In this document: one piece after another, positions 43,059-44,792 of the stretch
Numbering within the stretch: the stretch's first letter is position 1
How the letters are laid out: each line of letters begins with the position of its first letter
Assembly: GCA_020848275.1 (NCBI GenBank)
Contig: JADLAK010000103.1
Location: 1-64,000 of the forward strand
Direction: 5' to 3'
DNA length: 64,000 nt
Source: Planctomycetota bacterium
Lineage (GTDB): Bacteria > Planctomycetota > UBA8742 > UBA2392
Translations under genes and position numbers: made by a program
Notes under the pieces: model-generated
Databases searched by the model: none
Seen by the model: only the letters and a program-made list of their open reading frames with translations
What the model was told of the DNA's origin: nothing

Positions 43059-43838
43059 ATGACCGACCTGCTGCCATTTCGCGCCATTCGACACGCCGGC
43101 TACACGCTGGTGCTGCTGTTTGACGCGCTGGGCCACATCACGCAGGTTTTCAAACGCGCGCGCGCGGTGTTCACGCAGATGCATGTCATCGGCACGCAGT
43201 CGCTCGCCATCGCCAGCTTCTTCATGCTGCTGGTCGGCATGGTGTTCGCCCTGCAGACCGGCATCGAGTTCGCCCGCTTCGGCCAGGTTCGCCTTGTCGG
43301 CCTCGTCATCGCCGCTGCGATGGTGCGGGAGTTGGGCCCCTGGATGACGGCGTTTGTGCTGATCGCGCGCGTGGGCAGCTCCATGGCCGCGGAAATCGGG
43401 ACGATGCAGGTCAGCGAAGAAATCGACGCGCTAGACGTGATGTCCATCAACCCCGTCAGCTTCGTGGTCATGCCGCGCATCGTCGGCTACGCGATCATGG
43501 GGCCGGTGCTGACCGTGGTCGCAACGATGGTCGGCATCCTCGGCGGCGCGCTGGTGGCGCGCATCCAGCTTGGCGTCAGCTTCGATGACTTCTTCTACGA
43601 GGCCCGCCGCGGCGTCGAGCCGCTGGATATTTACTGGGGAATTTTGAAGTCGTTTGTCTTCAGTGTGTCCGCTGCGGCGGTCGCCTGCGCGTATGGCATG
43701 AAAACCGGCGGCGGCGCGGTCGGCGTCGGCCAGGCCAGCCGCAACACGGTCGTGGTCGCGCTCACGCTGACGGTGTTCTTCAATTATCTTCTGACGAGTT
43801 TTTACCGCGTCGTGAAGCTGATCGTCACGGGCGCCTGA
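43059..43838 (+). CDS. mlaE: MlaE/YrbE-type lipid ABC permease
   Basis: This 259-residue MlaE-family permease shows VRELGPWMTAFVLIARVGSS, then MAAEIGTMQVSEEIDAL and the PVSFVVMPR loop. In the Mla system it forms the inner-membrane channel, with MlaF as ATPase and MlaD as MCE subunit, moving phospholipids between the two membranes. mlaF and mlaD follow at 45422, but four features intervene: the MNT gene, the HEPN gene, a duplicate of this gene's own 3' end and a DUF1643 gene. The final 131 bp (43708-43838) are repeated at 44662-44792. Confidence 0.92.
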   Translation: MTDLLPFRAIRHAGYTLVLLFDALGHITQVFKRARAVFTQMHVIGTQSLAIASFFMLLVGMVFALQTGIEFARFGQVRLVGLVIAAAMVRELGPWMTAFVLIARVGSSMAAEIGTMQVSEEIDALDVMSINPVSFVVMPRIVGYAIMGPVLTVVATMVGILGGALVARIQLGVSFDDFFYEARRGVEPLDIYWGILKSFVFSVSAAAVACAYGMKTGGGAVGVGQASRNTVVVALTLTVFFNYLLTSFYRVVKLIVTGA

Positions 43839-43887
43839 TGTTTATGAACATTTTGCGGCCACGTTGGGGATTGGCTAAGATAGCGCC

Positions 43888-44295
43888 ATGAAAGCGCCCT
43901 GGCCCGTGCCCACAATGGCGGACATCAAAGCACTGGCGGCGGAAATCGCCGCAAAGTTCCATCCCGAAAAGATTATCCTGTTCGGTTCATGGGCCTATGG
44001 CACGCCCAACGAGCACTCCGATGTGGACATCCTCGTAGTGAAGAGTCACCGGGGGCGCGACATTGATACCGCTACAAAGATTCGTTGCGCGCTCGAATGC
44101 AACTTTGCGCTTGATCTGCTCGTTCGAAGCCCCTCCGCGTTGAGGAAGCGCATTGAAATGGGCGATCCCTTCATTATCGAGATTACCAGCAGGGGCAAGA
44201 TTCTCTATGAAGCCGATTACGCAAGAATGGGTCGACAAGGCCGAGGGCGACTGGGTAACGGCTTCAAGGGAGTATCGCGCCAAAAAGCAGCCTAA
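43888..44295 (+). CDS. MNT-domain nucleotidyltransferase (antitoxin-like)
   Basis: This 135-residue protein has a minimal nucleotidyltransferase core, with FGSWAYGTPNEHSDVDILVV carrying the GS and DxD metal motif (Asp45, Asp47). In MNT-HEPN pairs the MNT protein AMPylates the HEPN toxin and neutralises it. The start could also be Met10 (43915). The C-terminus after EITSRGKILYEADYA is read in overlap with the HEPN gene (about 89 nt), a common arrangement in these modules. It probably arrived with the module that separates mlaE from mlaF. Confidence 0.85.
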   Translation: MKAPWPVPTMADIKALAAEIAAKFHPEKIILFGSWAYGTPNEHSDVDILVVKSHRGRDIDTATKIRCALECNFALDLLVRSPSALRKRIEMGDPFIIEITSRGKILYEADYARMGRQGRGRLGNGFKGVSRQKAA

Positions 44296-44647
44296 TCACG
44301 ACGCGACCTGTTTTCATGGCCAACAATGCATCGAAAGATACCTGAAGGCGATCTTGATTGAACGAGGGACGCCGTTTCCCAAGATGCACGACCTCAACGA
44401 GCTACAAAAGCTGTTCCAACCCGCGGATCTTGCGCTCGCAGCCGAGTCGTCCAATTTCAAGCGTATCGGCGATTTCGCCGTAGCCGTTCGTTACCCCGGG
44501 CCATTGATGCGCAAACCGGATGCGGCTTTTGCGCTGCTCATTTGCGCCCGAGTGCGCAAGCACTGCCGAAAACTGTTAGGCTTGGCGACTCAAGCCAGGG
44601 CTGCAGCAAAAAAGTCGACCCGGACGAAACGTGCTCAACGGAAATAG
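44207..44647 (+). CDS. HEPN-domain protein (toxin-like partner of MNT)
   Basis: This 146-residue helical HEPN protein starts at ATG 44207, giving MKPITQEWVDKAEGDWVTA, followed by CFHGQQCIERYLKAILIERG and a C-terminal helix with RVRKHCRK. HEPN toxins paired with MNT act as RNases in toxin-antitoxin or defence systems. The canonical Rx4-6H motif is not clear here (only R-x3-H), so toxin activity is uncertain. It overlaps the MNT gene and ends 14 nt before the duplicated mlaE tail. Confidence 0.8.
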   Translation: MKPITQEWVDKAEGDWVTASREYRAKKQPNHDATCFHGQQCIERYLKAILIERGTPFPKMHDLNELQKLFQPADLALAAESSNFKRIGDFAVAVRYPGPLMRKPDAAFALLICARVRKHCRKLLGLATQARAAAKKSTRTKRAQRK

Positions 44648-44661
44648 ACCGCATGAGAGCT

Positions 44662-44792
44662 GCGGCGGCGCGGTCGGCGTCGGCCAGGCCAGCCGCAACA
44701 CTGTCGTGGTTGCGCTCACGCTGACGGTGTTCTTCAACTACCTGCTGACGACCTTCTACCGCGTCGTGAAACTGATCGTCACCGGGGCATAG
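44662..44792 (+). pseudogene. Duplicated 3' end of mlaE (remnant)
   Basis: These 131 bp match 43708-43838 at a constant offset of 954 bp. The first 40 bp are identical and 14 differences fall in the rest. Almost all are third-position synonymous changes (aat/aac, tat/tac, ctt/ctg, aag/aaa, acg/acc). One residue changes (Ser to Thr) and the stop is TAG instead of TGA. There is no start or upstream frame, so it is a fragment. The pattern shows it came from a functional mlaE allele, not by decay of the neighbouring copy. Confidence 0.92.

Follow-up and report, generated by a model that had tools for sequence, protein, structure and literature searches.

In the planctomycete DNA studied here, the permease gene mlaE has two ends: the last 131 bp of the intact gene recur on the far side of a predicted toxin–antitoxin (TA) pair, MNT/HEPN, and the two copies differ from each other in the way that alleles of a functioning gene differ. 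We think, with somewhat better than even confidence, that a fragment from a related bacterium, made up of the 3′ end of mlaE followed by MNT/HEPN, entered the resident mlaE by one-sided homology. The DNA (the window, a stretch of 64,000 nucleotides) is contig 103 of a metagenome-assembled genome (4.41 Mb in 111 contigs, 88% complete), and the named relatives of that genome are Planctomycetota.

The locus and the two ends of mlaE

On the forward strand, a gene with an EF-hand match, mlaE, MNT, HEPN, a DUF1643 gene, mlaF, mlaD, and a cytochrome c assembly gene follow one another in that order (Table 1). The MNT and HEPN genes are adjacent and overlapping—the HEPN start codon, an ATG at 44207, lies within the 3′ end of MNT—as they are in the MNT/HEPN (MntA/HepT-type, type VII) TA systems, and the MNT protein carries the GSx10DxD motif. 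Unlike the curated systems, this MNT protein matches the MntA of NCBIfam weakly and below the cut-off, and the HEPN protein, searched as 44210-44647, has no NCBIfam match; TA activity is predicted from sequence. The HEPN gene is the sole HEPN match in its genome. The best NCBIfam match of mlaF is MlaF, below the cut-off.

Table 1. Features of the mlaE region, in window coordinates
Feature	Position	Strand	Match or remark
Gene with EF-hand match	41179-42996	+	upstream of mlaE
mlaE (permease), intact, ends in tail 1	43059-43838	+	PF02405, 2.3e-66
Tail 1, final 131 bp of intact mlaE	43708-43838	+	direct repeat, spacing 954
40-bp block, identical in tails 1 and 2, likely crossover zone	43708-43747	+	
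MNT (nucleotidyltransferase, predicted antitoxin)	43888-44295	+	PF18765, 2.4e-9; PF01909, 2.7e-8 (Polbeta/NTP_transf_2)
HEPN protein (predicted toxin)	44207-44647	+	PF05168, 6.6e-16
Tail 2, second mlaE 3′ end, rest of gene missing	44662-44792	+	dN/dS 0.03 against tail 1
DUF1643 gene, second foreign gene, between tail 2 and mlaF	44833-45339	+	PF07799, 6e-41
mlaF (ATPase), displaced from mlaE	45422-46660	+	ABC_tran, 2.7e-31
mlaD	46657-47763	+	PF02470, 2.7e-14

Between the mlaE stop and the mlaF start lie 1,583 bp, the DUF1643 gene included; GC content is 0.61-0.64 in the surrounding chromosome, 0.55-0.56 in MNT and HEPN, and 0.52 in DUF1643. The initial annotation had mlaE split from mlaF and mlaD by an insertion of MNT/HEPN. 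The split stands, but the insertion is composite, with MNT/HEPN before tail 2 and DUF1643 after it: because the DUF1643 gene, which that annotation missed, also lies in the gap, MNT/HEPN is only part of what was inserted. The DUF1643 gene is a second insertion there, and it has no repeat of its own. No recombinase gene is present in 43839-45421, which holds only MNT, HEPN, and DUF1643, just as the initial annotation had it when it found no integrase; a promoter scan of the insert found nothing. Elsewhere in the window, a long imperfect palindrome (42976-43046; 30-nt arms, 80%; of the form GATTCGTGTGAATTCGTGTGGATTCGTGGC) lies just upstream of mlaE, and there is a DUF433 antitoxin-like gene at 52967-53134. 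The DUF433 genes of this genome occupy nine loci, and bracketing repeats were found at none of the nine.

The mlaE repeat is the only one of its kind in the window, and the 4.41-Mb genome holds no copies of the mlaE tail besides tails 1 and 2. A repeat search (91% identity over 127 nt) and the Pfam domains agree with the duplication first described around MNT/HEPN, and a codon comparison agrees with the differences then listed. Offsets 0-39 of the two tails are identical. All 14 differences fall in the 91 bp from offset 40 on, 12 of them at third codon positions and two at second positions (P = 8e-5 against neutrality); by codon, 11 are synonymous, one sets Ser (AGT) against Thr (ACC), and the stop codons are TGA and TAG. 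Counted by the Nei–Gojobori method, with the same 11 synonymous changes and one nonsynonymous change, dS is 0.39 (0.63 after the block). Decay in situ would have given about 13.8 nonsynonymous changes where one was found (P(≤1) about 1e-5), which rules out tail 2 as a decayed in-place copy and means that one of the tails came from another functional mlaE allele, as the first reading held of the second tail. Judged from these substitutions, the tails diverged for the most part when each was still the end of a working mlaE gene. Third-position GC (0.83 and 0.87 in the two tails) does not mark either one as native, nor do the distances to relatives given below.

How distant was the donor of that allele? 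Tails 1 and 2 differ from each other at 16 of 135 positions and from their closest relatives at 35 or more (tail 1 at 35-40 and tail 2 at 36-42 in the three comparable relatives, L004, L009, and L011), and both carry a Gln codon that is absent from all other family members. Since the tails are so close to one another and share this codon, the donor would have been close, probably a member of the same genus.

The identical block bears on where the two alleles may have been joined. Its 12 codons hold no synonymous difference, against 11 in the 30 later codons (Fisher P = 0.018). Across the family, 44% of same-residue codons differ within the block and 39% in the rest, so there is no general conservation of synonymous sites in the block, and the block's identity here is informative, though modestly. 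A crossover within these 40 bp is plausible, as had been suggested; the companion suggestion of a site-specific element fares less well, there being no integrase at the locus and no common sequence at other loci. A possible left border upstream of 44662, marked by a GCATGA match with a 1-bp shift, was dropped; the match is not significant (P = 0.11), and the border in Table 1 was therefore kept.

Uninterrupted mlaE–mlaF loci in relatives, to which the initial annotation had pointed, were sought across the family. An mlaE orthologue occurs in 14 of 15 family genomes, at 73-78% identity, and at that distance no gene intervenes between mlaE and mlaF in any of the 14; DUF1643 turned up in none of the other family genomes that were searched. 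A close strain with an empty site did not come to light, the nearest relatives being those 73-78% identical in MlaE, and the planctomycete genomes surveyed for HEPN yielded no donor, with tail 1 followed by MNT/HEPN (the genus is represented by one genome). Phages, plasmids, and viral contigs yielded nothing useful for the tail or a close HEPN, the one plasmid match being 33%. In two pairs of congeners among the family relatives (L014/L017 and L015/L016), the last ~25 mlaE codons are nearly without synonymous changes, while differences are frequent in the codons that precede them; this final stretch, which includes TATAGGATGGT/TATAGAATAGT with a rare Arg codon, is possibly an internal mlaF promoter or a recombination tract.

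Bracketing repeats at other TA loci

The initial annotation missed that scars of this kind recur at other TA cassettes. In a survey of HEPN genes, Planctomycetota loci were fetched with their flanks, and 80 regions were picked before repeats were examined, giving 75 HEPN genes with room for a bracketing repeat, here any direct repeat with a length of 45-400 bp and an identity of 80% or more. Ten of the 75 are bracketed, whereas positions in the same regions at distances above 3 kb predict 0.83 (P = 2e-8, a value that, like the other survey P values, assumes independence between positions; repeat-rich genomes contribute some of the 10 loci). At seven loci the repeats are found nowhere else in the fetched sequence (0.44 expected). 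In the control, regions of mlaE relatives, there are very few repeats of such size and none around mlaE itself.

The clean cases were read by hand; all are from draft genomes, and each offers only small counts. Some duplicate the tail of a gene: that of an NtrC-type regulator around a fused MNT-HEPN frame (59 bp, L152), of a histidine kinase around DUF433 and DUF5615 genes (113-120 bp, L256), of a carbamoyltransferase around a RelE-like gene (112 bp, L268; its Pfam match to Gp49 is below the cut-off), and of an ABC-F ATPase, again around DUF433 and DUF5615 (about 60 bp, L287, a member of the window's family). Others have a head-type repeat, around MNT/HEPN at L142, L143, and L247 (the last read from sequence) and around HEPN only at L150. 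These loci were not come by in one way: L152 and L150 were fetched since their repeats had already been seen, L256 and L268 are off-target repeats in HEPN regions, and L287 is the one clear coding-tail case in a DUF433 survey of 30 loci.

Divergence in the tails of L256 and L268 takes much the same form as in the window. At L256, 62 identical bp precede 10 differences, nine at third positions (dN/dS 0.03); at L268, 11 of 14 differences are at third positions (dN/dS 0.04); and at L152, 48 identical bp precede tails reading KGYNISV and KEYNIST, with a Ser codon TCT in one and AGC in the other. At L287, the second tail has decayed, with a stop and a 3-bp loss. The probability of so long an identical junction block by chance is 0.006 for the 40 bp of the window, 0.0007 for the 62 bp at L256, and 0.006 for the 48 bp at L152; no clear identical block was found at L268 or L287. 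The first reading proposed looking for the window's own 40-bp block at other MNT/HEPN insertions; the tail duplications elsewhere have no sequence in common, and no common site was found among the repeats of L142, L143, L150, L152, L256, and L268, whose source genes are unrelated.

Several candidates were set aside as target duplications: L220, L237, L241, and L261 (Brocadia-type), where the fetched sequence holds further copies of the repeats, and L225, whose repeat is the ORF that immediately precedes a TumE-type toxin gene. Beside these stand some further observations. In G019, tandem MNT/HEPN pairs (L145:10007-11039 and L144:17595-18660) have MNT heads in common over 256 bp (98%) or 177 bp (89%), past which the MNTs diverge, a pattern that a crossover in the MNT head might leave on bringing in a new pair. 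At L080:4179-5036, a 119-bp direct repeat (87%, spacing 742) brackets a small membrane-protein gene, so scars of this kind go with cargo other than TA genes too. At L212:3920-4777, a 146-bp repeat (92%), present at other places in that genome too, brackets a small HD-domain-like gene (by eye, RelA/SpoT hydrolase-like).

Proposed entry by homology and its rivals

How might the module have come in? The donor fragment would have held a relative's mlaE 3′ end and then the MNT/HEPN module. Most likely, its ends would have been joined into a small circle—mlaE tail fragment, MNT, HEPN—of a length equal to the repeat period, 954 bp, and one RecA-type crossover in the 40-bp identical block would then have yielded, in order, resident mlaE, donor tail 1, MNT/HEPN, a short donor/resident block, and resident tail 2. 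A closely related alternative, homologous recombination in the block with illegitimate joining at the other end (HFIR), would give the same sequence. Either way, the complete donor tail would have kept mlaE intact with the TA pair next to it, and the resident's tail would now lie farther downstream, cut off from its gene, as tail 2 (which tail is native, and the direction of transfer, we infer). Selection would favor outcomes with a whole mlaE and intact downstream genes. The TA pair, if addictive, would disfavor loss by recombination between the repeats, because such a deletion takes the antitoxin gene along with the toxin gene.

What else could leave one gene with two ends? Some integrative elements enter the 3′ ends of genes and restore the gene, displacing the original tail. 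A site-specific element with an attachment site in the mlaE 3′ end, its integrase acting in trans or since lost, would have supplied a replacement tail and left just such a geometry, an identity block (here a 40-bp core) and a synonymously diverged, displaced tail; the intact mlaE, its displaced original tail, and the mostly synonymous divergence do resemble the work of these elements. The resemblance stops at the missing recombinase, the lack of a fixed site, and an insert of only about 1 kb; moreover, the other TA scars lie in unrelated genes, some at the start and some at the end, and share no core, and no mobile record with the tail was found. We consider such an element unlikely. Homologous import from a relative, offered at the outset as the alternative to it, fits better with an absent integrase and with tails duplicated elsewhere in unrelated genes.

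An assembly artefact, in which two haplotypes (mlaE tail 1 with MNT/HEPN and mlaE tail 2 with DUF1643) were merged in one contig, has in its favor that the genome is metagenome-assembled, in many contigs, and that 40 identical bp could confuse an assembly graph built on short k-mers and at least swap the tails. For HEPN to be joined to the start of tail 2, however, reads would have to cross a junction at which no sequence is shared, and the same geometry occurs in several independent assemblies, though the clean cases are all drafts; we regard this explanation as quite unlikely. Very unlikely, in our judgment, is a long duplication of the target made in place, by a transposition-like or replicative process, whose copies are identical at birth and of which the unused one diverges. 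Long direct repeats around foreign genes, on the order of 100 bp, have been published for restriction-modification genes (PMC3874152), and the head-type repeats at L142 and L150 (few changes) and at L143 (five of 12 changed codons nonsynonymous) could fit. Against it stand the near absence of nonsynonymous change from the mlaE remnant and the equally low dN/dS at L256 and L268. One-sided homology, the reading that we prefer, also offers a guide for the rest: with no common site, no integrase, and unrelated targets and cargoes, that guide would be homology to the target gene itself.

Precedents and significance

Restriction-modification units are known to insert with long, variable target duplications on the order of 100 bp (PMC3874152, PMC3031569, PMC1643837), a process described as "insertion with long target duplication" (Nobusato et al. 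2000, Gene 259:99, as reported in the same three papers). As far as those reports describe it, our case is alike in having a small addiction-type unit, no known mobile element linked to it, and variable repeats made from the target (131 bp in the window; 59-120 bp at L152, L256, and L268). It is unlike it in its cargo, an MNT/HEPN TA pair instead of restriction-modification genes, and in its repeats, which are two functional alleles identical only in the first 40 bp and so argue for recombination between relatives rather than the copying of one target.

In Escherichia coli, linear molecules homologous to the target at one end were for the most part recircularized, trimmed at that end, and integrated by a single crossover, so that 109-950 bp of the gene end were duplicated, whereas published HFIR products mostly delete recipient DNA instead of duplicating it (PMC3240628). 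There, as here, one homologous gene end guides foreign DNA and is partly duplicated, the foreign segment in the window joining the resident gene through 40 bp of identity and then a diverged tail; those were laboratory constructs, and ours is natural, with diverged alleles and TA cargo. For the T6SS of Vibrio cholerae, it has been proposed that one-sided homology displaces a resident gene end behind an effector/immunity module (PMC5361080). There, too, a toxin/immunity module is anchored by upstream homology and the resident end is orphaned downstream, but in that case a homologous locus is replaced, and here only the tail of an unrelated housekeeping gene is displaced.

We found no report of TA modules with long direct repeats or 3′-end duplications, although a literature search does not prove absence; as far as that search shows, what is new is the pattern of long target duplication with TA modules and the allelic, not copied, nature of the repeats. 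The locus addresses the question of how toxin–antitoxin and restriction genes move without a nearby transposase or integrase, and the mechanism of insertion with long target duplication, described in 2000, is not settled in the literature surveyed. Where diverged yet functional tails are paired and share an identical block at the junction, the recombination event can still be read from them, and its mechanism becomes testable through donor and empty-site alleles in strain collections. We suggest, tentatively and as something that may well prove wrong, that chromosomal TA modules in Planctomycetota spread as integrase-free, homology-guided cassettes: a host gene end with its TA genes would move from one related species to another and enter through one crossover in a conserved stretch, the host gene would gain a working foreign end while the resident end stayed behind, and addiction would then preserve direct repeats that are otherwise unstable. 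If that is true, such cassettes would offer TA modules a general means of spreading, and insertion with long target duplication would be accounted for as well.
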